Positions 2,391 through 37,321 of a stretch of 38,994 nt of DNA are shown in pieces. The DNA comes from Campylobacteraceae bacterium (GTDB lineage: Bacteria; Campylobacterota; Campylobacteria; Campylobacterales; Sulfurovaceae), in NCBI GenBank assembly GCA_027038275.1, contig JALVXC010000104.1, forward strand, positions 1 to 38,994. The letters are read 5' to 3'. The position numbers and the translations under genes were made by a program. Below the pieces are notes generated by a model, which saw only the letters and a program-made list of their open reading frames with translations, had not been told where the DNA came from and searched no databases. Positions within the stretch are counted from its first letter, which is position 1; every line of letters starts with the position of its first letter.

Positions 2391-2851
2391 TGCAAGAGTT
2401 TAAAGAGATAGAGGCAGAAGAGGATTTAGAGAACTTTATTAAAGTAGTATTTAATACCGAGTTAAAGGTCTCTGGTGGTTGGGGATATAGTAAATCTTTA
2501 GCAACTATTATAGAGCAAAGCAATGATAGCTCTGTTGCTCAAATAGAGTTTACCTTAGCAACGATGAGAGCCTATTTGGAGATGAATATGACTTTAGATG
2601 AAGATGAACGTTATGGAGCAATAAAGCTAAATGAGCTTTCAAGAGTAAAAGAGGGTGAGTATGAGAAGGTTACTTATGAAGTATCTGCTATAAGGGAGCT
2701 AGAGTATAAAGAGTTTATTAATGAATATAAAGAGAATTTTAAAAAAGCTGATTTTGATATGAGTGAACATTTTAATCGACGAAAAGAGGCAACATTAAAA
2801 AGAGAGGTGATTTATTGGTTTAAAATAGTAACTATGGAAAAAATTAGGTAA
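2390..2851 (+). CDS. hypothetical protein (GTG start, overlaps upstream stop codon)
   Basis: ORF with GGAG ribosome-binding site, start overlapping the upstream TAG; no recognised domain. Confidence 0.6.
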   Translation: MQEFKEIEAEEDLENFIKVVFNTELKVSGGWGYSKSLATIIEQSNDSSVAQIEFTLATMRAYLEMNMTLDEDERYGAIKLNELSRVKEGEYEKVTYEVSAIRELEYKEFINEYKENFKKADFDMSEHFNRRKEATLKREVIYWFKIVTMEKIR

Positions 2852-2879
2852 AATACATAAAAAAATAAGTGATAATATT

Positions 2880-3743
2880 ATGAAACAGATAGAACTTGCC
2901 CACTCCCCTGATGCTGATGATATTTTTATGTACTTTGCCATTAAATTTGGTTGGGTTGATACTAAAGATTATGAGTTTACTAATATAGGGTTAGATATAG
3001 AGACACTTAATGTAGAGGCTCTTAAAGGTACTTACGATGTAACTGCCATTAGCTTTGGAGTCTACCCATTAATTAAAGATGAGTATGCACTACTTAGAAC
3101 AGCTGTTAGTTTTGGTAATGGTTATGGACCAAAACTCATAAAACGAAAAGATAAAAAATTAAAACGAAACTTCAAAGTAGCACTTTCAGGAAAATACACT
3201 ACAAATGCAATGCTCTTTAGACTTTACTACCCTAAAGCTAGACCTATTTATATGGATTTTTTAGAGATTGAAGAGGCTGTTATAAGTGGTGAAGTAGATG
3301 CAGGAGTGCTTATTCATGAGTCTATTTTAGATTTTGATAGCTCGTTAGAGGTTGAAAAAGAGATATGGGATATTTGGGTAGAGTTTGTAGGTGAGGGGTT
3401 TCCTCTGCCTCTTGGTGGTATGGCTATTCGTCGTTCACTCCCTTTAAATCGTGCTATTGAGATTGAAAATATACTTATAGAAGGTGTTAAGGTTGCTAAT
3501 GAGAAAAAAGAGGAGTTATGTAAAAGGCTTGAAGAGGAGAAACTAGTAAGAATCTCTGATGAGATGTTAACAAAATATCTTGATATGTATGCCTCTGATG
3601 AGTCAGTTGAGCTTAGTGAGGTGCAATTAAAAGCGTTAGATAAACTTTATGAACTAGGGTTCAAGAATGGAATTTTTTCTGAACCTATTAAGATAAAGGA
3701 GTATTTGATTCCTATAGAGTATGAGACTTTGAGGAGTAGTTAA
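2880..3743 (+). CDS. mqnD: 1,4-dihydroxy-6-naphthoate synthase (futalosine menaquinone pathway)
   Basis: LAHSPDADDIFMYFAIKFGWVDT start and overall MqnD-like sequence (DVTAISFGVYPLIKDEYALLRTAVSFGNGYGPKL). Confidence 0.9.
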   Translation: MKQIELAHSPDADDIFMYFAIKFGWVDTKDYEFTNIGLDIETLNVEALKGTYDVTAISFGVYPLIKDEYALLRTAVSFGNGYGPKLIKRKDKKLKRNFKVALSGKYTTNAMLFRLYYPKARPIYMDFLEIEEAVISGEVDAGVLIHESILDFDSSLEVEKEIWDIWVEFVGEGFPLPLGGMAIRRSLPLNRAIEIENILIEGVKVANEKKEELCKRLEEEKLVRISDEMLTKYLDMYASDESVELSEVQLKALDKLYELGFKNGIFSEPIKIKEYLIPIEYETLRSS

Positions 3744-3746
3744 ATT

Positions 3747-4163
3747 ATGAAAAAATATCTATATTTATTTTTTTTAATCTTCTTTATTGCTTGTGAAGAG
3801 AAGAGAAAACCAAACATTATTATAAGTTCAGATTTAGAGCTACCTATAAGTTGCATGAAACTCAATAGGTTAGGTGATAAAGAGTTAATAAATAGTTTAG
3901 ATAAACTATATGATTTTAATGAGAGCTGTGCTTTAACTTTAACACTATCGTCTAAAAAAGATATTGTCTGTAATAGTACTAGTAATGTAATGAGCAAAAA
4001 CATGGGTAAATTTCCAAAAAGTTTTTTAAAGCTAGAGCTCCGTAAAGGTATGAGAGTAGAGTATTCATACTATATTGACCTCTACTCTAATGTAGATGAA
4101 GATGATGTTAAAGAGGGCTTTGCTCAATTGAAAAGAGATTTATTGTGTAGAGTATCTCAATAA
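3747..4163 (+). CDS. putative lipoprotein, hypothetical
   Basis: Signal peptide with lipobox-like FIAC; no recognised domain. Confidence 0.55.
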   Translation: MKKYLYLFFLIFFIACEEKRKPNIIISSDLELPISCMKLNRLGDKELINSLDKLYDFNESCALTLTLSSKKDIVCNSTSNVMSKNMGKFPKSFLKLELRKGMRVEYSYYIDLYSNVDEDDVKEGFAQLKRDLLCRVSQ

Positions 4164-4206
4164 CTTTTTTGATATAATTCATAGAAATGAATTTTGGAGA
4201 AAAATA

Positions 4207-4500
4207 ATGACAATAACAAAACGTGTAACATTTATAGCAAAAGATGATGAGACAAGTATAGCAAAACTCAAAGAGTTGTTAACCGCAATGGTAAAACCAA
4301 GCAAGGCTGAAAAAGGGGTGATTTTTTATGAGATTTTTCAGTACAAAGATAATCCTAGAAAGTTTATGGCGTATGAGTCTTGGGAGAGCGAAGAGGCTTT
4401 AGATGGACATAAGGCGAGTGAACATTATGCAATTTATAAATCAAGTTATGAACCATACTGTGAGCATAAATATACCAATGAATTAGAGGTTTTAGGATAG
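4207..4500 (+). CDS. antibiotic biosynthesis monooxygenase (ABM) domain protein, quinol monooxygenase/LsrG-like fold
   Basis: GVIFYEIFQYKDNPRKFMAYESWESEEALDGHKASEHY matches the ABM pattern; RBS TTGGAG. Confidence 0.8.
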   Translation: MTITKRVTFIAKDDETSIAKLKELLTAMVKPSKAEKGVIFYEIFQYKDNPRKFMAYESWESEEALDGHKASEHYAIYKSSYEPYCEHKYTNELEVLG

Positions 4501-5679
4501 ATGGAAAATCTATGGAACGATAAAGAGGCAAGTGGCTATAAGAGTGACTTAGAACTGCGTGTCTACTCCTCAAATCTGCTTGGTCGAAGTGATGAGTTAG
4601 TACTTCATGGTGGAGGGAATACCTCTGTTAAGAGTGAGGTAGATGGTGAAGAGATACTCTATGTTAAAGGTTCTGGTTGGGATTTAGCAACTATTAAAGC
4701 TGAAGGGTTTGCACCTGTTAAACTCTCTTCTCTTTTAGATATGGCAGAGCTTGAAGAGTTGAGCGATACCGACATGGTAGCAGGACAAAAGAGAGCAATG
4801 ATTGATAGCTCTGCACCTAACCCATCTGTTGAGGCAATTTTACATGCACTTATTCCCTTTAAGTTTGTTGACCATACTCATGCTGATGCTATTGTAACAA
4901 TTACAAATTCAGTTCATGGTAGAGAGCATATTGAGAGGCTCTATCCTAACTTTTTGGTTGTTCCTTATATTATGCCAGGGTTTGTTTTGGCTCATGAGAT
5001 ATATAAGATGACACGAGAGTTTGATTGGGAGAGTTGTGAGGGTATTATTTTGCTTAATCATGGGATTTTTACATTTGATAATAGTGCTAAAAACTCTTAT
5101 AGTAAAATGATAAAGGCTGTAAGTTTAGCTGAAAATTTTTTACATAAAAATGCTGATATTTCATTTGATAAAATCGAACCTACAGGTTTTGATATGCAGG
5201 AGTTTAAGCATAAAATAAAAGATATAAAAGAGCATAAAGTTGTTCTTAAGCTTAACCAAACACAACTAGCGCTTAACTATGCTTCTAACCCTTATTTAGA
5301 GGAGTTTGCTACTCGTGGTGTTTTAACACCAGAGCATATTCTTCGTACTAAACACCAACCACTTATTGTTGAGAACAATAACTTAGATGAGAGGCTAGAG
5401 GAGTTTGTAGAGGGCTACAGAGACTATTTTGAAACTTTTGCAAAACCTAATATGATTATGCTTAACCCTGCTCCTAACTATGCTGTAGTTCAGGGGTTTG
5501 GGGTTATCTCTATTGGAAAAGATGAGAAAGAGGCAAATATTATTAATGATATTGTTGAGCATACTATGTTGGCTGTTATGAGAGCCGATAAGCTTGGGGG
5601 GTATGAGTCAATTTCCTTAGAAGATAGTTTTGCTATGGAGTATTGGGAACTAGAACAGGCAAAATTACGGAAAAAATAA
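4501..5679 (+). CDS. class II aldolase/adducin family protein
   Basis: LHGGGNTSVKSE and HTHADAIVTITN metal-binding motifs; N-terminus resembles the aldolase half of RhaD-type aldolase/dehydrogenases; starts directly after the ABM gene stop. Confidence 0.85.
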   Translation: MENLWNDKEASGYKSDLELRVYSSNLLGRSDELVLHGGGNTSVKSEVDGEEILYVKGSGWDLATIKAEGFAPVKLSSLLDMAELEELSDTDMVAGQKRAMIDSSAPNPSVEAILHALIPFKFVDHTHADAIVTITNSVHGREHIERLYPNFLVVPYIMPGFVLAHEIYKMTREFDWESCEGIILLNHGIFTFDNSAKNSYSKMIKAVSLAENFLHKNADISFDKIEPTGFDMQEFKHKIKDIKEHKVVLKLNQTQLALNYASNPYLEEFATRGVLTPEHILRTKHQPLIVENNNLDERLEEFVEGYRDYFETFAKPNMIMLNPAPNYAVVQGFGVISIGKDEKEANIINDIVEHTMLAVMRADKLGGYESISLEDSFAMEYWELEQAKLRKK

Positions 5680-5697
5680 AATTTGGTTGTGGGGTGA

Positions 5698-5767
5698 GGG
5701 TAGACACATTGGTCTACCCCTACATTTTCATAAATTGACCCGTAGGGGCAGGCCAATGTGTCTGCCC
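5698..5767. repeat. REPIN/BIME-like element: two inverted REP-like hairpins, each with a 5' GTAG
   Basis: Arms 5698-5723 and 5742-5767 are inverted copies (26 nt, 3 differences); each is itself a hairpin (GGGTAGAC-ACATTG-GTCTACCC; GGGCAGGC-CAAT..-GTCTGCCC) next to GTAG/CTAC. Confidence 0.75.
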
Positions 5768-5808
5768 ATAATATCCAAATATGAAATAATATAAAATAGG
5801 AAAACAAA

Positions 5809-7362
5809 ATGCAATACCTAATGGCAATAGACGCAGGAACAGGTTCAGTTCGTGCTGTAATTTTTGATGATGAGGGACACCAAATCTCTGTAGCAAGTCG
5901 TGAATGGACGCATTTAGAGGTTGAGGGTGTTCCTAACTCTATGGGCTTTGATACTAAGAAAAATTGGGAACTAGCAAAAGAGTGTATTAAAGAGGCTAAG
6001 GCTTTAGCAGGTTTAATGCCAGAGCATATTGTAGCCGTCTCTGCAACCTCTATGCGTGAGGGTATTGTACTTTATGACAAAGAGGGTAAAGAGCTTTGGG
6101 CAGTTGCCAATGTGGATGCTCGTGCTTCAGATGAAGTAAAGTACCTTAAAGAGCATTTTAAAGGAGTTGAAGAGGAGTTCTATGCTATCTCTGGGCAGAC
6201 CTTTGCGTTGGGAGCTTTGCCTCGTCTGTTATGGCTTAAAAACCATGAGCCTGAACTCTATGAGAGGGTAGCCTATATCTCTATGATTAGCGATTGGGTT
6301 TTGGCTAAACTCTCTGGAGTTATTGCAACAGAGCCAAGCAATGGTGGAACTACAGGGATTTTCTCTCTAAAAGAGCGTCAATGGGTCAAGGAGATGGCTA
6401 GAGGTGTTTGGCTAAAAGATGACATCTTCCCTCCTGTTTATGAGACAGGTACAGTTATTGGCAATGTTATAGATGAGAGTTCTGGACTTCATAGCTCTAC
6501 TAAAGTGGTTATGGGTGGAGGTGATGTTCAGTTAGGTAGTGCTGGTTTAGGAGTAACAGAGCTTGGGCAGGTTGCCATTTTGGGTGGTTCTTTTTGGCAA
6601 CAGGTAGTCAATATTAAATCTCATACTAAACCACCTAAAGATATATCTATGCGTATTAATCCTCATGTAGTTGAGGGGCTTTCTCAAGCAGAGGGTATTA
6701 CCTTTTTCTCTGGTTTGGTTATGCGTTGGTTTAGAGATGCCTTTTGTGACATGGAGAAATTAGAGGCTAAAAAAAGAGGAGTTGATGCCTACACTATTTT
6801 GGAGGAGAAGGCAAAAGATGTCCCTGTTGGCTCTTATGGGATTATGCCTATATTTTCCGATGTTATGAACTATGGTAAGTGGTATCATGCTAGTCCTAGT
6901 TTTATTAACCTATCTATTGACCCTGCTATCTGTAATAAGGCTTCGATGTTTAGAGCGTTGGAGGAGAACGCTTGTATGGTCTCTACAATCAATCTAAAAA
7001 AGATAGAGGAGTTTACTCATATTAATGTAAAAGAGATAGTCTTTGCAGGTGGAGCTAGTAAGGGTGAGTTGTGGTGTCAAATTTTAGCAGATGTTACAGG
7101 GTGCAGAGTAAAAATCCCAAAAGTAACAGAGGCTACAGCTCTTGGTACTGCTATGGCTGCTGGAGTTGGGGCAGGGGTTTACAACTCCATCTCTAGTGCT
7201 GCTAAAAGGTTAGTACGTTGGGATAGGGAATACACTCCAAATCCTAAGAACTATAGAGCCTATCAAGCTCTACAAAAAAAGTGGCAAGAGGTTTATAAAA
7301 ATCAGTTGACATTAGTTGACAGAGGATTGACAAAAAGTATGTGGAAAGCACCAGGAGTTTAG
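5809..7362 (+). CDS. lsrK: autoinducer-2 kinase-like FGGY-family carbohydrate kinase
   Basis: Near full-length similarity to E. coli LsrK recalled from memory: AIDAGTGSVRAVIFDDEG, SMREGIVLY, NVDARA, VVMGGGDVQLGSAGLGV, MRWFRDAFCDMEKL, FINLSIDPAICNKA, LTKSMWKAPG C-terminus. Confidence 0.9.
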   Translation: MQYLMAIDAGTGSVRAVIFDDEGHQISVASREWTHLEVEGVPNSMGFDTKKNWELAKECIKEAKALAGLMPEHIVAVSATSMREGIVLYDKEGKELWAVANVDARASDEVKYLKEHFKGVEEEFYAISGQTFALGALPRLLWLKNHEPELYERVAYISMISDWVLAKLSGVIATEPSNGGTTGIFSLKERQWVKEMARGVWLKDDIFPPVYETGTVIGNVIDESSGLHSSTKVVMGGGDVQLGSAGLGVTELGQVAILGGSFWQQVVNIKSHTKPPKDISMRINPHVVEGLSQAEGITFFSGLVMRWFRDAFCDMEKLEAKKRGVDAYTILEEKAKDVPVGSYGIMPIFSDVMNYGKWYHASPSFINLSIDPAICNKASMFRALEENACMVSTINLKKIEEFTHINVKEIVFAGGASKGELWCQILADVTGCRVKIPKVTEATALGTAMAAGVGAGVYNSISSAAKRLVRWDREYTPNPKNYRAYQALQKKWQEVYKNQLTLVDRGLTKSMWKAPGV

Positions 7363-7971
7363 ATGAATAGTGTTATTTACAATGGTGACAAGGTAACACC
7401 AAGCAAAGTTGTCTGTGTTGGGCGAAACTATGTTGAACATATCGAAGAGTTGGGCAATGAGATACCTGAAAATATGGTTATTTTTAACAAACCAAACTCT
7501 GCTATAGCCAATGAGTTAAACTACTATGGAGAAGATTGTCGTTTTGAGGGTGAAATATCTTTTTTAATAGTAGGTGGCAAAATAGCAGGTGTAGGTTTTG
7601 GGCTTGATTTAACCCATGCTAAAACTCAAAACCAACTTAAAGCAAAAGGTCTACCTTGGGAGAGAGCAAAAGCCTTTAATGGTTCAGCTGTTTTTAGTGA
7701 GTTTATCTCTTTAAATGTATCATTAGACTCTTTAGAGATGAAACTCTATAGAAATGATAAGTTAGTACAGTTTGCAAACTATGAGTTGATGATGTATAAA
7801 CCATTAACTATAGTAGAGGAGATAGGTTCATTTATGAGCTTTGAAGATGGAGATATTGTTATGTCTGGAACTCCTAAAGGTGTAGGTACATACCAAAAAG
7901 GTGACAAATTTGTAGGGCAGATACTATCTAATGGTAGGATTTTAGTTGAAGGGAGTTGGGCTGTTAAATAA
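7363..7971 (+). CDS. fumarylacetoacetate hydrolase (FAH) family protein
   Basis: CVGRNYVEH, FNKPNSA, EGEISFLI, MSGTPKGVG motifs. Confidence 0.88.
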   Translation: MNSVIYNGDKVTPSKVVCVGRNYVEHIEELGNEIPENMVIFNKPNSAIANELNYYGEDCRFEGEISFLIVGGKIAGVGFGLDLTHAKTQNQLKAKGLPWERAKAFNGSAVFSEFISLNVSLDSLEMKLYRNDKLVQFANYELMMYKPLTIVEEIGSFMSFEDGDIVMSGTPKGVGTYQKGDKFVGQILSNGRILVEGSWAVK

Positions 7972-9752: not shown

Positions 9753-10712
9753 CTACTCATCTAAAGCATCAAGTTCCTCAAGCACTTTTTGAAGATGTTT
9801 ACCCATCTGATGGTCAAAAGCATCCCATTTTTGGAAATCTTTCATTTTCTCAACAACTTTTGGTTTAATTTCATAAGCTTCAATATCTTCGTCCAATGCC
9901 TCTTTAGCCCCCTCTTTTAGAAGTTTCATATATTTTATATATGGGTCAAGAGTCTCATGCATCTTTCCTGGAGCACCATGTCCTGGAACATATAGATTAA
10001 GCTCTGGAGCTTTTTCTACATCTTCAAGAAGTTTAATATTTCCTAAAATACTAGATGATGCATCAAAGCCACCTAAACGACTCTTCATTAAGTTGTCACC
10101 TAAAAATAGAGTCTTTGTATTAGCATGAATAATCATAATATCAGTATCAGTATGGGCTCTTTTGGGGTGGTGAATATAGAAAGTCTGCCCATCAATCTCT
10201 ATCTTATCTCCATTCTTCATATATAATGTAGGGTATGCAAACTCTTTTGTACCTTTTAGATTGTGAGATAATCTATCTAATATTCCGTACCACTTCTCGG
10301 CCTCTCCAGCTTTTGATACCTCTACCATATGTTTTAGAGCATAGATTTTAACATTTGGGTACTTCTCAACTACTGCTTTGTTTGCAAACCAGTGGTCACC
10401 ATGTTTATGTGTATCTAAAATAGCAATAATCGGCTTTTTACTAACCTTTTCAACCTCTGCTAAAATCTTCTTACCAACATTATAGTTTCCACCTGGGTCA
10501 ATCATAATCAATCCATGTTCTGCCTCTATAATTGCGGGGTTGTTCATAAAACCTTCATTCTCTACATTTGGCTCCATTGGAGGTCCAGGTAAAATGTATA
10601 GATTGTCAGCAAATTTTTTAAACTCAAAATTTCCTAGTTTACCTAAAGTAAACGCATTTGCAGAGATGCTTAAAGCACCTACAACAGCTAGTGATAACAG
10701 TGTTTTTTTCAT
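9753..10712 (-). CDS. periplasmic MBL-fold metallohydrolase (SoxH-like)
   Basis: Signal peptide; HxHxDH motif HKHGDHW; PGHGAPG. Confidence 0.85.
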   Translation of the reverse strand: MKKTLLSLAVVGALSISANAFTLGKLGNFEFKKFADNLYILPGPPMEPNVENEGFMNNPAIIEAEHGLIMIDPGGNYNVGKKILAEVEKVSKKPIIAILDTHKHGDHWFANKAVVEKYPNVKIYALKHMVEVSKAGEAEKWYGILDRLSHNLKGTKEFAYPTLYMKNGDKIEIDGQTFYIHHPKRAHTDTDIMIIHANTKTLFLGDNLMKSRLGGFDASSSILGNIKLLEDVEKAPELNLYVPGHGAPGKMHETLDPYIKYMKLLKEGAKEALDEDIEAYEIKPKVVEKMKDFQKWDAFDHQMGKHLQKVLEELDALDE

Positions 10713-10721
10713 TGTTTCTCC

Positions 10722-11192
10722 TTAATTTTTGATAAGATAGACCCTATCTTTTCGTTTTATCTCTCCTGCTTTAATGACTTTGGCAAAGATACCTCTGTCA
10801 TCTTTTAGCAGTTTTGGTAACTTACTATCAATTTTGGTTAAACTTTTACAGAGTGTACAGTGTTGACTTATCTCTAAGAGAGCTTCACCTATTTGAATTT
10901 GTGTTCCAGATTTTAGTCTATATGGATTGTAGTCAATTAAGATGTTTTCACCTAACTCTCCATATTTTAACTCTATATCTCTACTTTGAGCTAGTCTGTA
11001 GCTATCTATTGAGCTAAGTAGAACAGACCTATCAATATCTTTAGCATAGAATTTATCGTTAAGTACACCTTTTGTATCTAAGAGCATTCTATCTACACTC
11101 TTTTTTGAGACAAATAGCTCTAAAATTTCTCCAATGGAGTCTACACTATTCATCTTCTTCAAACTCCTCAAAAGTTTTATCTCTATAAGCAC
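10722..11192 (-). CDS. MOSC domain protein
   Basis: GELGENILIDYNPYRLKSGTQIQIGEALLEISQHCTLCKSLTKI and DDRGIFAKVIKAGEIKRKDRVY. Confidence 0.75.
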   Translation of the reverse strand: MLIEIKLLRSLKKMNSVDSIGEILELFVSKKSVDRMLLDTKGVLNDKFYAKDIDRSVLLSSIDSYRLAQSRDIELKYGELGENILIDYNPYRLKSGTQIQIGEALLEISQHCTLCKSLTKIDSKLPKLLKDDRGIFAKVIKAGEIKRKDRVYLIKN

Positions 11193-11619
11193 CTGTAGAT
11201 ATATATAAGAGAGTGTCTTTTATGACTTTTCTATTTCTATATCCAACTATATTATAGATTGCATTTTGATTTTTATCTATAAATATAGTTGTAGGAAAGA
11301 GGTCAATACCTACATCTTTTGTAAACGCTCTATTGCTCTGCTCTTTACCTTTATATAAGATAGTCTCGTCATCATCTCTATTTATATCTAAAAAGATAAA
11401 TTTACTATCTAATATATTTGAGATATTTTTATCTTCAAGCTCAAAAATCATCTTTTCACAAAAACCACAGCCATCTTTATGAAAAAAGAGGATTATTGGC
11501 TTGTTGTTCTCTTTGCTAAATATCTCATCAAGATTTATATCTGCACCAATAGAGAGGCTAAATATAGATATAAGCAGAATAGATACTTTTTTTATAAACT
11601 TCATACTCATATCCATCAT
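11146..11619 (-). CDS. soxW: SoxW-like periplasmic thioredoxin
   Basis: Signal peptide; CGFC active site (FFHKDGCGFCEKM); cis-Pro region FPTTIFIDKN; within the sox locus. Confidence 0.75.
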   Translation of the reverse strand: MMDMSMKFIKKVSILLISIFSLSIGADINLDEIFSKENNKPIILFFHKDGCGFCEKMIFELEDKNISNILDSKFIFLDINRDDDETILYKGKEQSNRAFTKDVGIDLFPTTIFIDKNQNAIYNIVGYRNRKVIKDTLLYISTGAYRDKTFEEFEEDE

Positions 11620-11629
11620 AATAGCTTTT

Positions 11630-12766
11630 CTACTCGTCGTCTAACATCTCAAGTTCGTCAAATGCATATCCTACATTTTGAGCATTTAAGATGTCATACA
11701 TAGCCTTATCTTTAAACTCTGGAAGAGTAACTTTTTCAGTAATCTCTGTTGAATCAACATCATTATCTAATGCTTTAAGGATTCTCTCTTTTAGGAGTTT
11801 AAAGTATAATCTTGCCTCATCTACAGCATTTTTACCTGTTATTAATCCGTGACCTGGAACTAAGACTTTCCAATCAAGCTTGTCTATCATATCAATAGCC
11901 TTAATCTGTCCCATAACAGAGCCATCTCTATTTGATGTAATTCTTCCATTCATAACAAGGTCACCAGCAAATAGAACCTTCTCTTTTGGCATATATACAA
12001 AAATATCATCAATCGTGTGTGCCTTTACAGCCATAGGAATAATCTTAAACTCTTTACCACCAAATGAGATTGTAAATGGTTTTTTCGGTGTTTTATCGAG
12101 TTTAATAATGTGTGTTCCCTCAATTGCATTTTTAGGTAATACATTATACATTCTTGTCTTATCACCCTCTTTATAGTTGGTGTTAATTGTCTCTGGACCA
12201 ATTAGAGTAGCATTAAACTCTTTTTTATAAAAATCATTTCCTAACCAGTGGTCATCGTGATTATGAGAGTTAACAACATACTTAACAGGAAGGTTGGCAA
12301 TTTTTTTCATCGCTGAGTATGCCTGTTTTGCAAACTGATATGATGGACCTGTATCCATTACAAAATAACCATCATTAGTCTTTACATAACAGTTATTTGC
12401 CATATTCCCAGCATTCTCTTTAGTTGGTTTATCTAATGCACCAAAGAAACACCATACATTATCTGCTACTTTTTTAGGTTTTAACTTATAGTCAAATGGA
12501 GCATTACTACTGTTTTTATCTACAGATTTGCTACTACCTAAAGAGGCTTTTATAATATCTCCCACACTCTTATCTTCTCCAATAGAGCTAACTTTTGTAT
12601 CTATTTTTACACTCTCTTTTGAAGCTTTTGTGGAGGTGTTCTTAGCAACAGCTTCAACTTTCTTTAGTGTAGAGTTTAAGATTTGAGGAACACTCTTCTC
12701 CTCATTTGCAGATACTACAGTTAACAAAGAAGCTGTTACTATAGATATTAGAACCGTTTTTTTCAT
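11630..12766 (-). CDS. periplasmic MBL-fold metallohydrolase (SoxH-like)
   Basis: Signal peptide; HNHDDHWLGNDFY; FAGDLVMNGR; VPGHG. Confidence 0.85.
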   Translation of the reverse strand: MKKTVLISIVTASLLTVVSANEEKSVPQILNSTLKKVEAVAKNTSTKASKESVKIDTKVSSIGEDKSVGDIIKASLGSSKSVDKNSSNAPFDYKLKPKKVADNVWCFFGALDKPTKENAGNMANNCYVKTNDGYFVMDTGPSYQFAKQAYSAMKKIANLPVKYVVNSHNHDDHWLGNDFYKKEFNATLIGPETINTNYKEGDKTRMYNVLPKNAIEGTHIIKLDKTPKKPFTISFGGKEFKIIPMAVKAHTIDDIFVYMPKEKVLFAGDLVMNGRITSNRDGSVMGQIKAIDMIDKLDWKVLVPGHGLITGKNAVDEARLYFKLLKERILKALDNDVDSTEITEKVTLPEFKDKAMYDILNAQNVGYAFDELEMLDDE

Positions 12767-12809
12767 CTATTTTCTCCTGTTTTTATTTGATTGAAATTTA
12801 TAACCTACT

Positions 12810-12835
12810 CTTATTGTGTTTCCAAACACAATAAG
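12810..12835. repeat. perfect inverted repeat between soxZ and MBL gene
   Basis: CTTATTGTGTTT-CC-AAACACAATAAG, 12-bp stem. Confidence 0.7.
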
Positions 12836-12842
12836 ACTAAGC

Positions 12843-12867
12843 AATATCCCCCCATAGAGGGGGTATT
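12843..12867. repeat. second hairpin directly downstream of soxZ
   Basis: AATATCCCCC-CATAG-AGGGGGTATT stem just beyond the soxZ stop. Confidence 0.65.
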
Positions 12868-12871
12868 GAAA

Positions 12872-13162
12872 TTACTTAATTTTTACTTTTTTGGTTTTTG
12901 TGTTACCTTTAAGGTCAGTCCAAGTAACTTCTAATTCACCACCTTTAGCACCCTTAAATTTAAATTTATATAGAGGGTTTTTAGACATAAATCCACTTCC
13001 ATTCATCTCATAAACTACTTTATCACCAACTTTAGCAATAACAGTTGTAATAAAGTTAGCCTCTTTAGATTTTTTCTTAGCCTCTTCTGGTCCAATGTTT
13101 TGGTGTTTTGCTAATACTTTAACTTTTACAATTCCATCTTTTTCTTTTGCTTTAACTTTCAT
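12872..13162 (-). CDS. soxZ: thiosulfate oxidation carrier complex protein SoxZ
   Basis: MKVKAKEKDGIVKVKVLAKHQNIGPEEAKKK...ITTVIAKVGDKVVYEMNGSGFMSKNPLYKFKFKGAKGGELEVTWTD. Confidence 0.93.
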   Translation of the reverse strand: MKVKAKEKDGIVKVKVLAKHQNIGPEEAKKKSKEANFITTVIAKVGDKVVYEMNGSGFMSKNPLYKFKFKGAKGGELEVTWTDLKGNTKTKKVKIK

Positions 13163-13233
13163 CTTTTTCCTTTCAATTTAATGCTTGATTTTAATTACTT
13201 TTTATCTACAAATATCTGCGAAGGTGAACTAAA

Positions 13234-13683
13234 TCAACCTCCACAACCACCTTTAGATACTTCAATTGGTAATACTTTAGAGTAGAATTTACCATCTTTA
13301 CCCTCTACAATAGCAGTAATCTTACCAGATTTTTTCATCTTCATAGTTACAGAGAAATCAATAATCCCACCCTCTGGAATAGTCCAAACAGCAACTAATG
13401 AACGAGGATTAGTATCTTGAAGTAGTGCTACAGACTTAGCATCAATATCAGATTTTACAACTACAGGAATCTTTCCACCATTTTCAGCAAGTTTTGGTGC
13501 TTTAATCTTTACACCCTTCTCTTCTGGTTTAATGTCCCCGTAAAGTGCTTTAATAGCATCTGCTGGAGTTGCTCCTTGCCATGCATCTGGCTTCTCTTTT
13601 CTAAAGTCGATTGCATTAAGCTTTGTCATTGGTACTACAGCTAATGCAGCTAAACCTAAACCTAAAAATTTTCTTCTATCCAT
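13234..13683 (-). CDS. soxY: thiosulfate oxidation carrier protein SoxY
   Basis: Tat-like N-terminus MDRRKFLGLG; C-terminal sulfur-carrier GGCGG. Confidence 0.93.
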   Translation of the reverse strand: MDRRKFLGLGLAALAVVPMTKLNAIDFRKEKPDAWQGATPADAIKALYGDIKPEEKGVKIKAPKLAENGGKIPVVVKSDIDAKSVALLQDTNPRSLVAVWTIPEGGIIDFSVTMKMKKSGKITAIVEGKDGKFYSKVLPIEVSKGGCGG

Positions 13684-13837
13684 CTAATTTCCTTTCAGTG
13701 TGATGTGAATGTGTGAAATCTCAATATGTGTTAAGCTGATAATTAAGAGTCTTGGTTTCGATTTCAAAAACCACTCTATCAAAACTTAACACGGTTTATA
13801 TTAAGTTTCTTTATAAAAAGAGACTTAATAAACTTGA

Positions 13838-13869
13838 GTTCACAAACAGTATATTTTAAAATTGTGAAC
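13838..13869. promoter_or_regulatory. inverted repeat in soxD-soxY intergenic region
   Basis: GTTCACAA (13838-13845) and TTGTGAAC (13862-13869), perfect 8-bp arms. Confidence 0.4.
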
Positions 13870-13888
13870 TAATTGTGAAACCTAAAGT

Positions 13889-14995
13889 CTATTTGCTTTT
13901 GGAGTACATATATTCGATAATCTGTTTCAATTTCTCATCGCTATATGAACTACCACCTCTTGGAGGCATAGCACCAGTCCCTTTAATAGCAGTTGCTAGA
14001 ACTTTGTCAATACCTTTTTTCATAACTTTAGCCCAAGCCTCTTTATTTCCAACATCAGGAGCTCCCATTTTGTCGTTTCCATGACATACAGCACAACTCT
14101 TTTCGTACTCCTCTTGACCAGGTTTTACAGAGTTGTCTTTTTTCTTAGGTAAATCTTTAACTTCTGCAAATGGAGGAGTAACATCGGTTCTTGGGTCTTT
14201 TACAACGACTAGTTTTGCACCATCGTCTTTGCAATCTTTCATACATCTAACGCCAACTGCACCTATGTTTTTACCATCAGAGAGAAATGCTTTTACATTT
14301 TTAACACCATTAGGTCCATCTATATTAGGAATAAACCCTTTCTCATTTGGCATTTTGATTTTTAAGAAGTTTTCATTGCTTAAGACTGTATCATCATCCA
14401 TATCTTTGCCATCTAGTTGTATCTCATTGGTAGCAAGAAGATAGGCTGTAATTGCATAGGTCTCATCCCAAGTTAAACTCTTAGGGTGAGCATAAGGCAT
14501 TGCATCATGAATATACCAAAGAAGTGTACTAGCTTTTGGCCAGTATGTCCCAATAGTTCTCTTTGGAGCATCTGTTTTACCTGGAGTTCTTTGATTTGTT
14601 AGAGAGGCTATATCTCCACCTGTAAGAGTTGGATAACCAAGTCCACCTGCACCAAAGTCACCATGACATACAGCACACTGCTCCTCAAATAGCTCATCAC
14701 CCTCTCCAACAGTTCCTTTACCCTTAGGTAGTCCTGTTCCATCTGGCATAATGTCAGTATTCCAAGCTTTAAGCTCATTTGGTGTTGCTTTTCTACCAAA
14801 ACTAATAGGAGGTACTTTTTGGTCATTGTATCTATATGCAGTATATACACCATCTTTTCTTGGATATGTCATACCACCATCAACAGCATCTTTTTTACCA
14901 TCAAAAGCAAAAGCTGAAATTGAAGTTAACACTAAAGTTGCTACACCTACAGAAATAGTCTTATGAACGCATTTGAGCATTATGCACCTCCCCAT
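13889..14995 (-). CDS. soxD: c-type cytochrome SoxD, sulfane dehydrogenase subunit
   Basis: Two CxxCH sites (CAVCHGDFGAGGLGYPTL and CAVCHGNDKMGAPDVGN); overlaps soxC; true start probably the MLKCVHK Met near 14980. Confidence 0.85.
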   Translation of the reverse strand: MGRCIMLKCVHKTISVGVATLVLTSISAFAFDGKKDAVDGGMTYPRKDGVYTAYRYNDQKVPPISFGRKATPNELKAWNTDIMPDGTGLPKGKGTVGEGDELFEEQCAVCHGDFGAGGLGYPTLTGGDIASLTNQRTPGKTDAPKRTIGTYWPKASTLLWYIHDAMPYAHPKSLTWDETYAITAYLLATNEIQLDGKDMDDDTVLSNENFLKIKMPNEKGFIPNIDGPNGVKNVKAFLSDGKNIGAVGVRCMKDCKDDGAKLVVVKDPRTDVTPPFAEVKDLPKKKDNSVKPGQEEYEKSCAVCHGNDKMGAPDVGNKEAWAKVMKKGIDKVLATAIKGTGAMPPRGGSSYSDEKLKQIIEYMYSKSK

Positions 14996-16295
14996 TTGCT
15001 TTTACATACCAAGTGTTGATTGAGTTTCTATGGTAGACACCCTCTACACCCATTATTTTTTTCTCTTGATTTACTGTTGGTTGAGTATCACCAGAGTCAT
15101 CAGTAGCTCTACTCTCTAACATTAGCTCTTTACCTTCATATTTATATATATAGCTAAATCTTGTCCAGGCTTTTGGAAGAACTAGCCCTTTAAGTTTAGC
15201 CTCAACCCAGTTTTTACCACCATCAAATGAGATATCAACATGAGTAATAGTACCTTTTCCACTCCATGCAAGACCCTCAATCTCAACTATATCGCCTTTT
15301 TTAAGGTCAGTCCATGGCTTTTCAGGACAAGGAGATGTAATAATAGAGTTAACTTCAAGAGGATAGAAGTGCTGAATAGCTTTACCTGTTGGTAGAAGAG
15401 TTGTATATTTAGATGTCTCCTCTTTACAGTACCAAGGCTTATCGCCAAACTCTAATCGCTTAAGCCACTTAACACATAAGTTTGCTTCCCAACCTGGAAG
15501 AAGAAGTCTAACTGGATAACCTTGCTCTTCTCGTAATGCTTCACCATTCATAGCATATACAATCATAGCATCGTCCATAACCTTCTCTACAGGAACAGTT
15601 CTACTCATAGATGAACCATCTCCACCTTCTGCTAACATCCATAGAGCTTTAGGGTCAACTCCTACATCTTCAAGAATAGTTTTGAGTCTAACACCTGTCC
15701 ACTCTGTACAGCTCATCATACCCTTTACAAATTGAAGTGAGTCAAATTGAGGTGTTTTCCACTCAGCTGCACCATTAGAAGGACACTCTAAAAAGTGAAT
15801 TACACTCTCACTTGGGTATCTTTTAATCTCATCCATAGTCAATACTATAGGCTTTTTGACCATACCATGTATCATAAGTCTATGTTTATTGTAATCGATT
15901 CTTGCTACTCCATTATGAGTTCTTGTAAAGAAGAGACCATTTGGAGTGATGATACCTTTTAAATCCTGTAGTGGTGTTAAAGATACAGCAGCATGCATAT
16001 CTCCAGCACTAGATAGTAGAGGTGTTGTTCTTCTTACAACATTATGCTCATAAGGTGATGGCACACCATAAGGATTTTTATTTAGCTCATACCCTAATGA
16101 TGTTGCCCATGGTTGCTCTTCCATAATAAACTCATCATCTTTTCCCTCTGCCAAGAGTTTTACAGGTGAAAGTAGACTACTAGCAGCAACAGCACTAGCT
16201 GAGTATACAGCTGCTTTTCTAAAAAAATCTCTTCTACTAGATTTATTTGATACTAAACTAGAATCATTTGTAGAAGGTTTATCAATTTTTTTCAT
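14961..16295 (-). CDS. soxC: sulfane dehydrogenase molybdopterin subunit SoxC
   Basis: Tat signal SSRRDFFRKAA; FLECPSNGAAEW; sulfite-oxidase-family fold (LPGWEANLCVKWLKRLEF). Confidence 0.93.
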   Translation of the reverse strand: MKKIDKPSTNDSSLVSNKSSRRDFFRKAAVYSASAVAASSLLSPVKLLAEGKDDEFIMEEQPWATSLGYELNKNPYGVPSPYEHNVVRRTTPLLSSAGDMHAAVSLTPLQDLKGIITPNGLFFTRTHNGVARIDYNKHRLMIHGMVKKPIVLTMDEIKRYPSESVIHFLECPSNGAAEWKTPQFDSLQFVKGMMSCTEWTGVRLKTILEDVGVDPKALWMLAEGGDGSSMSRTVPVEKVMDDAMIVYAMNGEALREEQGYPVRLLLPGWEANLCVKWLKRLEFGDKPWYCKEETSKYTTLLPTGKAIQHFYPLEVNSIITSPCPEKPWTDLKKGDIVEIEGLAWSGKGTITHVDISFDGGKNWVEAKLKGLVLPKAWTRFSYIYKYEGKELMLESRATDDSGDTQPTVNQEKKIMGVEGVYHRNSINTWYVKANGEVHNAQMRS

Positions 16296-32665: not shown

Positions 32666-33973
32666 TTAGACTTTTAAAATAAAATCCAACACATTAATAA
32701 TCTCAATTTTATACCCATCATACTCAATAACTTCAGAGCTATCAAAGGTAATAATCATGGCTCTAATCTCTCCTCTTAGCTCTTTACTTGCTTCTGAAAA
32801 AACCCTTAATTCCCTATGACGTGTCTCTTCATTTTCAAGAGTTACAGAGACTTGTATGAGTTCGGTAATATTCTCATTTTGAATAAGAAAATCTACCTCT
32901 TTTCCTTTTTCTGTCTTATAATAGTATATCTCTTTGCCTCTTCTTTTTAACTCTAAAAAAACAATATTTTCTAAATTAGCCCCAATTTTTTGGGAGATAT
33001 TAAAAGAGACAACATTTGAAAAACCTGTATCTATGGCATAAAACTTTTGAGGATTGGCTATCTGCTTTTTTAAAGAGTAATCAAACTTCGGTATGCTCAA
33101 AATCATATAGGAGTTTCTAAGATACTCAACATAGTCACGTATGGTATCAAAAGAGCTAGAGAAGTTGTTTTTGAGCTTGTTGTAAGCATTGATAGTTGCA
33201 TTATTTGAGAGTAAAAAGAGAGCCAACTCATTAAGTACTTGATAGTTCTTTAGCTTATATCTTGCAACAATATCTTTTAATAAAATAGAGTCATAATAAC
33301 TCTTCATCGTATCTTTTTTAAGTGCTTCATCATCTTGCAATACAGTTTTTGGAAAGCCACCATACCTCATGTAGCTGTTGAAGTGTTGCTGTAAAATCAT
33401 TTTGTTGTGTAGCAGTTCTGCTTTTGAGTTAATAGTTATGCCATTAAAACCAAGATACTCTTTAAAAGATAAAGGAAAAACCTCTATGTCCAAGTAGCGA
33501 CCACTAAGAGCTGTACCAAACTCAGCCCCCAAAAGATGAGAGTTTGAACCTGTCACATAGAGATGGTTGTTACTCAATTCATACTCTTTAAGTACCCACT
33601 GTTCCCATCCTGCTACATTTTGCACCTCATCAAGCATTATGACTAAGTCACCTGTAGGTTTTATGTACTCCAGATAAACATTTTTTATATCTTCTAGTAG
33701 GGTCTTCTCATCAAACATTCTAAAGCGTTGGTCTTCAAAGTTGACAAAGAGTATGTTTTTTACATCTGTTCCATTTGCGACAAGTCGTTTTATCTCATTA
33801 ACTAAGAGTGTGGACTTCCCACTTCGTCTTACCCCCTTAATGACAATAACCTCACCAGCCTTAGATTTTTTGGCTATCTCATCTTCATAGAACTCTCTTC
33901 TGTAGGTTTTCGGCAGAGGCTTAAACCAAAAGTTCCAATCACTTATGATTTCAAATATTTTATCTTTATTCAT
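32666..33973 (-). CDS. AAA (AAA_14) ATPase with C-terminal DUF4143 domain
   Basis: Walker A GVRRSGKST, Walker B LVIMLDEVQNV, TGSNSHLL, C-terminal nuclease-like KGKEVDFLIQ. Confidence 0.92.
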   Translation of the reverse strand: MNKDKIFEIISDWNFWFKPLPKTYRREFYEDEIAKKSKAGEVIVIKGVRRSGKSTLLVNEIKRLVANGTDVKNILFVNFEDQRFRMFDEKTLLEDIKNVYLEYIKPTGDLVIMLDEVQNVAGWEQWVLKEYELSNNHLYVTGSNSHLLGAEFGTALSGRYLDIEVFPLSFKEYLGFNGITINSKAELLHNKMILQQHFNSYMRYGGFPKTVLQDDEALKKDTMKSYYDSILLKDIVARYKLKNYQVLNELALFLLSNNATINAYNKLKNNFSSSFDTIRDYVEYLRNSYMILSIPKFDYSLKKQIANPQKFYAIDTGFSNVVSFNISQKIGANLENIVFLELKRRGKEIYYYKTEKGKEVDFLIQNENITELIQVSVTLENEETRHRELRVFSEASKELRGEIRAMIITFDSSEVIEYDGYKIEIINVLDFILKV

Positions 33974-33988
33974 CTCTAATCCTATCAG

Positions 33989-34032
33989 TATACTGACTGA
34001 ATTATATTTAAATTACTCTTTATACTGACTGA
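33989..34032 (-). promoter_or_regulatory. putative promoter/operator of the AAA gene: 12-bp direct repeats around a TATAAT box
   Basis: TATACTGACTGA at 33989-34000 and 34021-34032 (32-bp period); minus-strand TATAAT at 34001-34006. Confidence 0.5.
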
Positions 34033-34044
34033 TATATAAATAAT

Positions 34045-34280
34045 CAAAGTCCAATCACACCTTCCAAATACATCACAGCTCTACCACTCATTTCAACACT
34101 TTTAACTTTTCACTTTGGGTAGAAAAAGTTATCACATCTTTTTCATAGTCCAAACACTCAAAGAACAATAAGCTCATCATTTAGCCAACGCTCTAAAGGA
34201 CAGACCATTGCAGGGTTTCCCTCAAAGGTTTTGGTGGCAAATGCGTCTATTTGGTAGATTTTTTGTTCTCTTTTTAACAT
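34045..34280 (-). pseudogene. PhzF-family isomerase remnant with internal deletions/frameshifts
   Basis: Minus strand: MLKREQKIYQIDAFATKTFEGNPAMVCPLERWLNDELIVL*, then FECLDYEKDVITFSTQSEKLKVLK*, then SGRAVMYLEGVI; these match start, middle and C-terminal PhzF segments. Confidence 0.82.
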
Positions 34281-34651
34281 TTTTTATTCACATCTGTATC
34301 AAAACTCAATTTCCCATAGCCTTGCAATCTGCTTTTAGCACAAATTAAAGCATCTACAAAATCTATATTTTTATCATCAACAATATTAAGTGTCTCTATG
34401 AGTAAAATTTTGTCTCCCACCACTCCACGCAGGGCAATAAGCCGTTTAAGGTCTGCTATAACTTCAGATTTTGGGAGTTTGTAGAATTTTATTAAAACAA
34501 AAAGAGCTTCCATAACTACAGAGTCAAGTATCTCTATCTCTATCTCTGCATTTTCTACTTTGGTAAATATCTCTGTAGCAATTTTTAAATGCTCTTCATG
34601 GTCACCAACTAAAAAACGGATAATAATATTGGTATCAATGAGAGAGACCAT
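34274..34651 (-). CDS. PIN-domain toxin (type II TA)
   Basis: LIDTNIIIRFLVGDHEEH, FVDALICAKSR, LSFDTDVNK. Confidence 0.88.
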   Translation of the reverse strand: MVSLIDTNIIIRFLVGDHEEHLKIATEIFTKVENAEIEIEILDSVVMEALFVLIKFYKLPKSEVIADLKRLIALRGVVGDKILLIETLNIVDDKNIDFVDALICAKSRLQGYGKLSFDTDVNKKC

Positions 34652-34886
34652 ATTTCTCTCCCATTGTTTCCATCATAGCTAACTCTTTTGCCTTTTCTAG
34701 GTCATCGCACTTTATGACTCTATCTCTATATTTCCCTGCCATTGAACCAATGATAGAGTGCTTTTTAATTGGGTAAACAATTGCTACTCTTTGGTTCTTT
34801 CGTTTGTCTATAATGGCAAAAACATCAGTTAATTTGGTAAGAAGTGAGATGTTTTTTTGAATGTCACCTATAGATATACTGTGCAT
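34635..34886 (-). CDS. antitoxin partner of the PIN toxin
   Basis: Small ORF overlapping the toxin start; Phd/YefM-like N-terminus (ISIGDIQKNISLLTK...NQRVAIVYPI). Confidence 0.75.
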   Translation of the reverse strand: MHSISIGDIQKNISLLTKLTDVFAIIDKRKNQRVAIVYPIKKHSIIGSMAGKYRDRVIKCDDLEKAKELAMMETMGEKYGLSH

Positions 34887-34899
34887 TTTGGCTTCCTTT

Positions 34900-34929
34900 T
34901 ATATAAATGTATTTCTATTATATATAAAT
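34900..34929 (-). promoter_or_regulatory. candidate antitoxin operator: direct repeats
   Basis: TATATAAAT at 34900-34908 and 34921-34929 (21-bp period) just upstream of the antitoxin start. Confidence 0.35.
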
Positions 34930-34953
34930 ATGATTGAATTGTCAAATGACTTT

Positions 34954-34990
34954 TCTACTCCAACCCCCTCCCATACCTCCAAAATACCAA
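34954..34990. repeat. 37-bp direct repeat, copy 1
   Basis: TCTACTCCAACCCCCTCCCATACCTCCAAAATACCAA; 36/37 identical to 37674-37710. Confidence 0.9.
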
Positions 34991-35073
34991 GCCCTGAAAC
35001 AGACCACGAAAGAGAAAAAAGAGTATAAAGCTAATCCAAAGGAGAGAAGATATTTCTTCCAAATACTTTTGCT

Positions 35074-35625
35074 CTATTTACTAAGCTCCATCACCTTAGT
35101 ATAAACTCCATTAAGTGTTTTTGTATTTTTCTCACTCCAATAGAGCTTCATGCCTTCACGACCCTTTTTCTCTGCCCATTTTTGAAGTTTATTTCGCTCT
35201 CCAATGTACTTGTATTGGGGTACACCAAAACCACATGAGGTTAAGAGAAGTTCAACTTTCATCTCAAAAAACTGTCTAGCACCAATAAACTCAGTAAAAA
35301 GGGAACTCATCTCTTCCCATCGTTCATCTTTATCGTGGATGACTATTGCTTTTCCATAAAGTTTTAAAATCATAGGTGTTTTGTCAAATGAGTTAAACAT
35401 AATGGTCATACGTCCATTCTCTTGAACATGTGCTGAGGTTTCATTTCCTGAACCTGTATGGTTCATCCATACTACAGTGTTTTCATCTATAATTTTTAAA
35501 GAATCCATCCCTTTTGGCGAAACATTAATGAACCCATCAACTCCTGCTGAACCTATAACAAACATTTTTTGTTTCTCTATAAACTCTCTGTGTGCTTTGT
35601 TTATACTGTCAAATTTTACTGCCAT
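35074..35625 (-). CDS. pyridoxamine 5'-phosphate oxidase family protein
   Basis: FVIGSAGVDGFINVSPKGMDSLKIIDENTVVWMNHTGSGNETSAHVQENGRMTIMF. Confidence 0.88.
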   Translation of the reverse strand: MAVKFDSINKAHREFIEKQKMFVIGSAGVDGFINVSPKGMDSLKIIDENTVVWMNHTGSGNETSAHVQENGRMTIMFNSFDKTPMILKLYGKAIVIHDKDERWEEMSSLFTEFIGARQFFEMKVELLLTSCGFGVPQYKYIGERNKLQKWAEKKGREGMKLYWSEKNTKTLNGVYTKVMELSK

Positions 35626-36917
35626 TTATAATCCTTTTTTACATCTTTCAACAAAAAAGAGACCAAAGAGACAAGCTCAATCTTAATCCCATCTTCCTCA
35701 TAACTCCCCTCTTCACCATAAGTAATAATCAAACCCTCATTTAAACCATACAGCTTACACGCATTAACCAAGCCTTTAAACTCTCTAGCCCTTGTCTTCT
35801 CATTTTCCATCTCATATGTTACTTGTATGGCTTGGATTACTCTTCCTTTTTCAACAACCACAAAGTCACATTCTGATGTTCTATCGGTATGATAATATAT
35901 CTCTTTCTCTCGCCGTCGTAGCTCTAAGAAAATAGCATTTTCCATAGATTTCCCAATGTCATCTGAAAATTTATAAAGTACCGTATTGTTCAAACCTATA
36001 TCTATACTATAAACCTTTTTGTCTGTTTGGGTAGTAATCTTTTGACTGTACCCGTCAAGTGTTAAACTCAAATAAATATCTTCTACATATCCCAAGTACT
36101 CATAGAGACTATTTTTACCAACTTTAAAACCACTCGATTTTAGGTCATTATAGATTTTATTGACAGAGACTATCTTGGTAGAAGAGGCTAAAATACGCTT
36201 TAAAAAGAACTTTAACGCTTCAATGTTTTTAATAGAAAATCGCTCTACCAAATCTTTATAAATCATAACGCTATAGTAGTCTTGCAGTATCTTCTCTCTA
36301 ATTCTATCATCAAAAAGAACTGTTTCAGGAAAAGCTCCTTCATGTAAAAACTTCTCTAAACGGTTATGAATAAATGCTAAACTTTTTGTACTATAGAGGT
36401 CAACTTCTATCTTCTCAAAAGCTAAATATTCACGAAATGAGAGAGGAAAAACTTCATAACTAATGGTTCGACCACGCAAAGAGGTAGCAATGTCTCGACT
36501 CAAAAGTTTAGAGTTAGAACCTGTAATAAAGATATTTTGACTCACACTATCATAAACACGCCGAACAAACTTCTCCCACCCATCTACATTTTGAATCTCA
36601 TCAAAAAAGAGATAGGTACTGCTCATCTCTATCTCTGGGTAGAGTTCCATATAGGCTTGAAGTACAAGGTCTAAACTCTCTTGATTTAACTCAAAGCGTT
36701 CATCTTCAAAGTTAAAAAAGAGGATTTTCTTTTTGTCAATGGTTTGTGTAAGTCGGTTTATGGTCTCATACAGAATCGAAGTCTTTCCACAACGACGAAC
36801 CCCCATAAGTGTTACAATCTTATGGGTATTTATGGGGAGTTAAAGTTCACGGCTATGTACTTCAAAAGGCTTTTGTAGATGAAAATCTCGGATTATCTGT
36901 TTTATTTTCTTTTTCAT
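35616..36917 (-). pseudogene. AAA (AAA_14)/DUF4143 ATPase interrupted by an in-frame stop near its N-terminus
   Basis: Continuous frame from ATG 36917: MKKKIKQIIRDFHLQKPFEVHSREL*LPINTHKIVTLMGVRRCGKTS; TAA at 36840-36842; remainder 36806-35616 open with Walker A/B and DUF4143. Confidence 0.75.
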
Positions 36918-36981
36918 AAGGAAGATTATAGCGTGTTTTTTCTTTTTTATTTAATTTTCTATTTTCATAAAATAAAAAACC

Positions 36982-37010
36982 TTGACATTTTGTATCTAAA
37001 CAGATACAAT
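36982..37010 (+). promoter_or_regulatory. higBA promoter with operator palindrome between -35 and -10
   Basis: TTGACA (36982-36987), 17-nt spacer, TACAAT (37005-37010); TTGTATCT-AAAC-AGATACAA at 36990-37009. Confidence 0.75.
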
Positions 37011-37015
37011 AGCTT

Positions 37016-37321
37016 ATGTATGAAATAAAATCAACAAAAGTTTTTTCTAAGTGGCTCTCTAAGCTCAAAGACATGAGAGGTCGTATCGCTATTGCACGAC
37101 GCATTGAGAGAATGGAACATGATAACTTTGGAGATGTAAAATCCATAGGAACAAACATCTCTGAACTTAGAATTCCAACAGGTCCAGGATATAGAGTCTA
37201 TTTTACGAAAAAAGAAGAAAAAATCATTATCTTATTGGTAGGTGGAGACAAATCAACCCAATCTAAAGATATAAAAAAAGCTGAAGAGTTACTAGAGGAG
37301 TATGAAGATGAACAAGAATGA
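37016..37321 (+). CDS. RelE/ParE superfamily HigB-type toxin
   Basis: FSKWLSKLKDMRGRIAIARRIERMEHDNFGDVKSIGTNISELRIPTGPGYRVYFTKKEEKIIILLVGGDKSTQSKDI. Confidence 0.9.
   Translation: MYEIKSTKVFSKWLSKLKDMRGRIAIARRIERMEHDNFGDVKSIGTNISELRIPTGPGYRVYFTKKEEKIIILLVGGDKSTQSKDIKKAEELLEEYEDEQE

Follow-up and report, generated by a model that had tools for sequence, protein, structure and literature searches.

The stretch of DNA studied here (hereafter the window; 38,994 nucleotides, contig JALVXC010000104.1 of assembly GCA_027038275.1, our contig C104) belongs to a 2.54-Mb Campylobacterota genome bin, with Sulfurovum-type and Campylobacteraceae metagenome bins as its close named relatives. It carries a compact run of genes for an ABM-fold protein, a class II aldolase, the autoinducer-2 (AI-2) kinase LsrK and a FAH-family protein (Table 1). 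In Escherichia coli, LsrG converts phosphorylated 4,5-dihydroxy-2,3-pentanedione (P-DPD) into 3-hydroxy-2,4-pentanedione-5-phosphate (P-TPO), from which LsrF shifts the acetyl group to CoA and releases dihydroxyacetone phosphate (DHAP) (PMC8016206). The original prediction, made from the window alone, had taken the four genes as one functional unit that disposes of self-produced AI-2 without an Lsr transporter, the aldolase standing in for LsrF. All four open reading frames are found where it had placed them and their families are confirmed by Pfam and NCBIfam; the abutting start and stop codons that it described are also real, with an exact TAG/ATG junction at both the ABM–aldolase and the LsrK–FAH boundaries.

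Table 1. Features of the LsrK locus, in window coordinates
Feature	Coordinates	Strand	Support
ABM-fold protein, 97 aa; proposed P-DPD isomerase (LsrG-like role)	4207..4500	+	Pfam ABM 7e-13
Class II (metal-dependent) aldolase, 392 aa; proposed LsrF replacement	4501..5679	+	Pfam Aldolase_II 3e-18
26-nt inverted repeat pair in the aldolase–LsrK spacer	5698..5767	no strand	88% complementary, 18-nt loop
LsrK, autoinducer-2 (DPD) kinase, 517 aa	5809..7362	+	Pfam FGGY_N/C 1.5e-40/4e-22; NF008187
FAH/FAHD-family protein, 202 aa; probably outside the conserved unit	7363..7971	+	Pfam FAA_hydrolase 2e-25

The kinase is the most secure assignment of the four and, judged by its sequence, a true LsrK orthologue. 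It reaches 867.7 bits over residues 1–516 with the NCBIfam equivalog model of autoinducer-2 kinase (NF008187; cut-off 528), level with the LsrK encoded in the lsrACDB operon of Sinorhizobium meliloti (857 bits), and is 57.6% identical to E. coli LsrK over 519 alignment columns. The predicted end-to-end likeness to the E. coli enzyme holds, with a match to PDB 5ya0 (E 3e-198) that spans residues 2–517 and ends in nearly the same C-termini (KAPGV/KAPGL). Across 17 LsrK sequences from several phyla, 99 columns are invariant, including the FGGY catalytic-type Asp239 of the GGGDVQ motif. This conservation bears on the idea that the kinase has been repurposed for another sugar, such as a rhamnulose-, xylulose- or tetrulose-type ketose, and that the genes form an ordinary operon for sugar catabolism. 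The many specificities of the FGGY family and the origin of the aldolase in the rhamnulose-1-phosphate aldolase/PRK08324 superfamily speak for it. However, we hold such a repurposing to be unlikely in view of the 58% identity to a proven enzyme, the invariant columns and the scores of all rival FGGY family models (below 190 bits). Moreover, the window aldolase is only 27% identical to rhamnulose-1-phosphate aldolase proper, the conserved neighbourhood contains no sugar transporter, isomerase or sugar-binding regulator, and the same partners accompany LsrK in genuine lsrACDB operons.

The partners of LsrK were compared in 81 loci, the window and 80 taken from GTDB genomes, 67 of them with enough upstream sequence. 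In 39 of the 67, ABM and aldolase genes immediately precede LsrK; the aldolase precedes it alone in seven more and the ABM gene alone in three, one of which (L064) really has the aldolase too, missed through an over-extended LsrK start. Among 149 related genomes, a set that includes the window's own, LsrK and the aldolase are both present in 51 and both missing from 90, four having only the one and four only the other (p 4e-30 in a Fisher test, which here and below treats genomes as independent and ignores shared ancestry). Outside the window's own genus, the corresponding numbers are 27, 82, three and three (p 1e-19), and the two genes occupy separate contigs in several genomes, e.g. G043, G052, G075 and G111. 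LsrK and ABM occur together in 42 genomes, LsrK only in 13, ABM only in two and neither in 92. The conserved unit is made of three genes, ABM–aldolase–LsrK, and not of four: the co-occurrence expected of the whole cassette is found for these genes and fails for FAH. No ABC transporter appears in the conserved neighbourhood; LsrA, LsrC and LsrD were not searched for separately. A small cupin gene directly follows LsrK in four Campylobacterota loci (L062, L099, L109 and L110); its product is 44–56% identical to the cupin encoded after Salmonella lsrK, Deinococcus has one too, and the cupin is a possible LsrK partner.

The FAH gene adjoins LsrK in one of the 81 loci, the window, and their abutment is private to this genome. 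It is found in 76 of the 149 genomes, its orthologues sit in unrelated contexts, many genomes devoid of LsrK carry it, and it shows no association with LsrK, the trend being a negative one (23/32/53/41, p 0.09). On these conservation grounds, FAH was rejected as a fourth member of the cassette, and its predicted place in one functional unit has to be given up. Its product has the FAA_hydrolase domain and scores 108 bits with the YcgM-type model, below the cut-off of 201. FAH-family enzymes cleave 1,3-dicarbonyls, and a four-gene unit in which FAH would take over from LsrF by hydrolysing the 1,3-dione P-TPO, with DHAP and acetate as products, could draw on the LsrK stop codon abutting the FAH start codon and on FAH orthologues found at most 2 kb from luxS in 12 genomes from four genera of the same family (G034, G041, G042, G044, G048, G053, G058, G061, G065, G069, G076 and G085; our count from coordinates). 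In one of these arrangements (L126, 3140–4331), FAH and luxS are divergent and 58 bp apart. Against this, besides the distribution of FAH, the luxS neighbours come mostly from one genus and their proximity may reflect shared ancestry. The FAHD enzymes purified in one study all displayed oxaloacetate tautomerase activity save one that was deliberately mutated (PMC10825186). FAH may be a housekeeping enzyme of this type, a sufficient role that would also account for its wide, LsrK-independent distribution, and we consider its participation in a four-gene unit very unlikely.

The ABM protein had been likened to LsrG by its fold. Its AlphaFold2 model (pLDDT 94) indeed displays the ferredoxin-like fold of LsrG, with a TM score of 0.91 to the LsrG structure 3qmq, but other ABM proteins score equally; the fold is common to both and equally common to many proteins of this type, and structure was discarded as a non-discriminating test of LsrG membership. 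The curated LsrG family model does not include the protein either (26.2 bits, a weak match, for a cut-off of 135). The invariant residues H68, H73, Y74 and E57 occur in LsrG too.

The aldolase matches the NCBIfam model PRK08324.2-4 with 452 bits over residues 1–392 and ends at position 401 of this 657-position bifunctional profile. It lacks the short-chain dehydrogenase/reductase (SDR) half and hence represents the aldolase half of PRK08324-type aldolase-SDR enzymes as a protein on its own. Its AlphaFold2 model (pLDDT 92) resembles PDB 3m4r best, followed by L-fuculose-1-phosphate aldolases. Residues E111, H125, H127 and H187, which by motif, as in FucA, we take to be the catalytic glutamate and the metal-binding histidines, are invariant in all 19 Campylobacterota sequences aligned. 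The same glutamate and three histidines are kept in the alphaproteobacterial and bifunctional relatives compared, the glutamate being replaced by aspartate in the rhamnulose enzyme only. In class II aldolases of the FucA/DrdA type, the metal is held by three histidines and the DHAP enediolate is stabilised. The conserved residues and the modelled class II fold suggest that the enzyme could release DHAP from P-TPO. In FucA/DrdA-type enzymes, the metal serves as a Lewis acid (PMC6079011).

The genome-wide searches agree with what the window had suggested, namely that the usual Lsr parts are lacking. No E. coli LsrB match is found in the window's own genome and none exceeds 28 bits in the 149 genomes; LsrF is not found in the own genome and its best match in the set is a partial one of 59 bits, the same query recovering LsrF at 51–99% identity in plasmid records; and the LsrR family (PF04198) is missing from all 149, the control genomes being positive. 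The question raised at the outset about luxS and lsrB elsewhere in the genome is answered by the presence of the former and the lack of any match to LsrB. In an earlier survey, Helicobacter and Campylobacter had luxS and lacked an lsrB receptor (PMC2561040). Since luxS is found in 137 of the 149 genomes, its co-occurrence was set aside as an uninformative test. In E. coli, LsrK and the degradation enzymes control phospho-AI-2 (PMC2728841), and the cassette might similarly set the level of phospho-AI-2 as an internal signal. Given the lack of any LsrR/SorC-type regulator in the 149 genomes and of any LsrB-like receptor, such a signalling device appears highly improbable. The combined lack of importer and LsrR rather points to a function in clearance and carbon recovery without lsr-type signalling.

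The genomic context ties the cassette to the turnover of S-adenosylmethionine (SAM), as MetK is encoded near LsrK in 17 loci, at times within the cassette (ABM-MetK-aldolase-LsrK in L069). MtnK/MtnA are found near LsrK in four loci (L043, L070, L072 and L084). MetK and MqnC were identified by reading sequences, as were MtnK and MtnA, for which NCBIfam models also matched the copies in the window's own genome. One of these loci (L043, 799–9563) aligns ABM, MetK, MtnK, MtnA, a 653-aa aldolase-dehydrogenase, a solo aldolase and LsrK in one run, with both SAM by-product routes side by side. In the DHAP shunt, the aldolase would cleave 5-deoxyribulose-1-phosphate or methylthioribulose-1-phosphate made by MtnK/MtnA, and LsrK would act on a related 5-deoxypentose instead of DPD. 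Besides the four loci and the two aldolases of L043, a mild enrichment of MtnA with LsrK (14/22, p 0.008) favours this option, and the substrates of the shunt differ from P-TPO at one carbon only. However, the window's own genome encodes on a separate contig (L122) a methylthioribose kinase (485 bits, cut-off 275), MtnA (405 bits, cut-off 279) and a 200-aa class II aldolase, which implies that the 392-aa aldolase is not needed for the 5-deoxyribose/methylthioribose pathway there; MtnK and MtnA do not accompany the 392-aa aldolase in this genome, and its membership of the shunt was rejected for this genome. In the same vein, an mtn set and an lsrK set, both with a kinase and an aldolase of their own, share a 10-kb stretch of genome G019, 40 of the 55 genomes with the aldolase are devoid of MtnA, and the LsrK–MtnA association is not significant outside the genus (p 0.19). 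We thus regard the DHAP shunt as an improbable alternative. The mtn operon of L122 (contig C135) is apparently split by an AAA ATPase gene and a 172-aa gene between mtnK and mtnA (2795–4611); the ATPase is a weak match to the defence protein MAD3 (57 bits, cut-off 420).

The strongest new evidence for an aldolase acting in place of LsrF comes from alphaproteobacterial lsr operons, drawn from plasmid records. In S. meliloti, Thalassospira, Rhizobium WL3, Ensifer, Alloyangia and Paracoccus, the order lsrA-C-D-B is followed by a class II aldolase gene, placed directly after lsrB as lsrF is in enterobacteria, and none of the six loci contains lsrF. On the other side lie a sugar-binding regulator and lsrK, itself followed by an ABM/LsrG-like gene. 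The aldolases of these operons are 34–40% identical to that of the window over the whole length. The S. meliloti ABM protein is 42% identical to E. coli LsrG over nearly the full length, the ABM protein of the window being less close. In Roseicitreum, aldolase, ABM and lsrK genes stand beside a different ABC transporter, and in the lsr loci of Salmonella and Lacticaseibacillus lsrF is present and this type of aldolase absent. This mutual exclusion of lsrF and aldolase is a tendency in a few lineages and not a rule: Shinella has both lsrK and lsrF, about 0.4 Mb apart, and a Sagittula locus (L145, 650–6947) combines in one run lsrF with a class II aldolase, glycerol-3-phosphate dehydrogenase and an FGGY kinase other than LsrK, under a sugar-binding regulator, and reads as an lsr-like operon. 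In the aldolase tree, several branches of which are long, the Campylobacterota aldolases group with Campylobacterota aldolase-dehydrogenases, then with a rhizobial aldolase-SDR. A single common origin of lsr aldolases is not borne out by this tree, which places the rhizobial aldolase-SDR with the Campylobacterota group, and the same subfamily was possibly recruited twice. Alphaproteobacteria lack luxS (PMC2561040), which suggests that they take up the AI-2 of others. We found no paper describing the S. meliloti lsr aldolase.

Altogether, we consider it probable that the cassette serves a cytosolic salvage or disposal of the self-made AI-2 precursor, with the class II aldolase doing the work of the LsrF thiolase and DHAP as its product. 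DPD would be released during S-ribosylhomocysteine recycling by LuxS, whose gene lies elsewhere in the genome, and LsrK would phosphorylate DPD at C5 and trap it in the cell. The ABM protein might then convert P-DPD into the 3-hydroxy-2,4-dione (hydrate P-TPO), as LsrG does, and the stand-alone aldolase might break the C2–C3 bond instead of the CoA-dependent LsrF, DHAP joining central metabolism. With water attacking the acetyl group, the two-carbon product would be acetate; with a retro-aldol reaction after reduction of the ketone, it would be acetaldehyde. FAH has no step in this route, in which every substrate, the cleavage chemistry and the action of ABM as an isomerase are inferred. The central idea of the original prediction, a transporter-less LsrK route for self-made AI-2 with the aldolase as LsrF stand-in, is well supported by LsrK orthology, by luxS in the genome, by the lack of LsrB, LsrF and LsrR-family genes in the 149 genomes, by the strong co-occurrence of the trio and by the same aldolase subfamily in the alphaproteobacterial lsrF position. 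Its four-gene unit finds no such support.

Several points weigh against this proposal. P-TPO needs a retro-Claisen-type cleavage, and class II aldolases normally perform a retro-aldol reaction; the activity of all cassette proteins is predicted from sequence. The ABM protein matches LsrG weakly, 13 of the 55 LsrK genomes are devoid of ABM at the threshold used, and neither partner lies upstream of LsrK in 18 of the 67 loci, although some of these carry the partners elsewhere. The near-universal luxS does not discriminate (p = 1.0), and the tree does not unite Campylobacterota and alphaproteobacterial aldolases without including a rhizobial aldolase-SDR. Finally, the Fisher tests are blind to kinship, yet the association of LsrK and aldolase holds outside the genus and between contigs.

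Aldolase and LsrK genes of the window are separated by 129 bp, and the 26-nt inverted repeat in this spacer looks like a small inserted element; it is missing from the same spacer in the two sister loci examined (L031 and L032). Beyond this hairpin, a promoter/terminator scan added nothing informative. Further away, translations alone suggest Sox-type sulfur-oxidation-like and MBL-fold genes and a dihaem cytochrome on the minus strand (9753–16295), as well as two related AAA ATPases (32666–33973 and 35616–36806), a PIN-like protein and a RelE/HTH-like pair (32666–37607).

Whether luxS of Campylobacterota serves signalling or only the detoxification of a methyl-cycle by-product is a long-standing question, on which the paper describing the Nautilia genome did not decide (PMC2628731). 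With an intracellular LsrK–aldolase pair that is conserved in the absence of LsrB and LsrR, the by-product reading can be put to a direct test. If the proposed salvage is right, AI-2 in the many sulfur-oxidising members that carry the trio would be recycled as a by-product of metabolism rather than read as a message. We give roughly even chances to the broader view of a second, so far unassigned AI-2 catabolic route, whose metal-dependent class II aldolase would split the isomerised phospho-AI-2 independently of CoA, acting on imported AI-2 in Alphaproteobacteria and on their own AI-2 in Campylobacterota. On this view, the Campylobacterota route would be a pure SAM-cycle salvage without sensing, and the ‘quorum-sensing kinase’ would serve housekeeping recycling across much of the phylum. 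An aldolase in the lsrF position would explain AI-2 breakdown without LsrF in S. meliloti-type lsr operons, and would supply a substrate for one group of stand-alone PRK08324-type aldolases, now named by fold only. We found no paper that connects LsrK to a class II aldolase in the sense meant here, or to Sulfurimonas/Sulfurovum, although an earlier mention elsewhere is possible.

Compared with known systems, the cassette shares with the lsr system of E. coli and Salmonella an orthologous kinase, an ABM-fold protein (LsrG in that system), an aldolase-type last step and DHAP as expected product. It differs by the lack of the LsrB importer, LsrR and LsrF, by an ABM protein far from LsrG in sequence and by a class II metal aldolase instead of a class I-fold CoA thiolase. 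The alphaproteobacterial lsr operons likewise combine LsrK, a PRK08324-type stand-alone class II aldolase and ABM without lsrF in the locus; unlike the window, they include LsrACDB and a sugar-binding regulator, their ABM protein is near LsrG and luxS is lacking. With the bifunctional aldolase-dehydrogenases PRK08324/RhaEW, the window aldolase has in common the aldolase half, the catalytic glutamate and the three histidines, whereas it is devoid of the SDR half and distant from the rhamnulose-1-phosphate enzyme compared. Finally, the DHAP shunt and 5-deoxyribose salvage (MtnK-MtnA-Ald2, DrdAIK) follow the same kinase–isomerase–class II aldolase logic from a SAM by-product to DHAP, sometimes with adjoining genes, but the shunt uses a different kinase fold, a different isomerase and a short 200-aa aldolase, and both systems coexist in the window's own genome. 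Among these systems, the cassette most likely represents a variant of the known Lsr processing route, predicted to be turned to the salvage of self-made AI-2.

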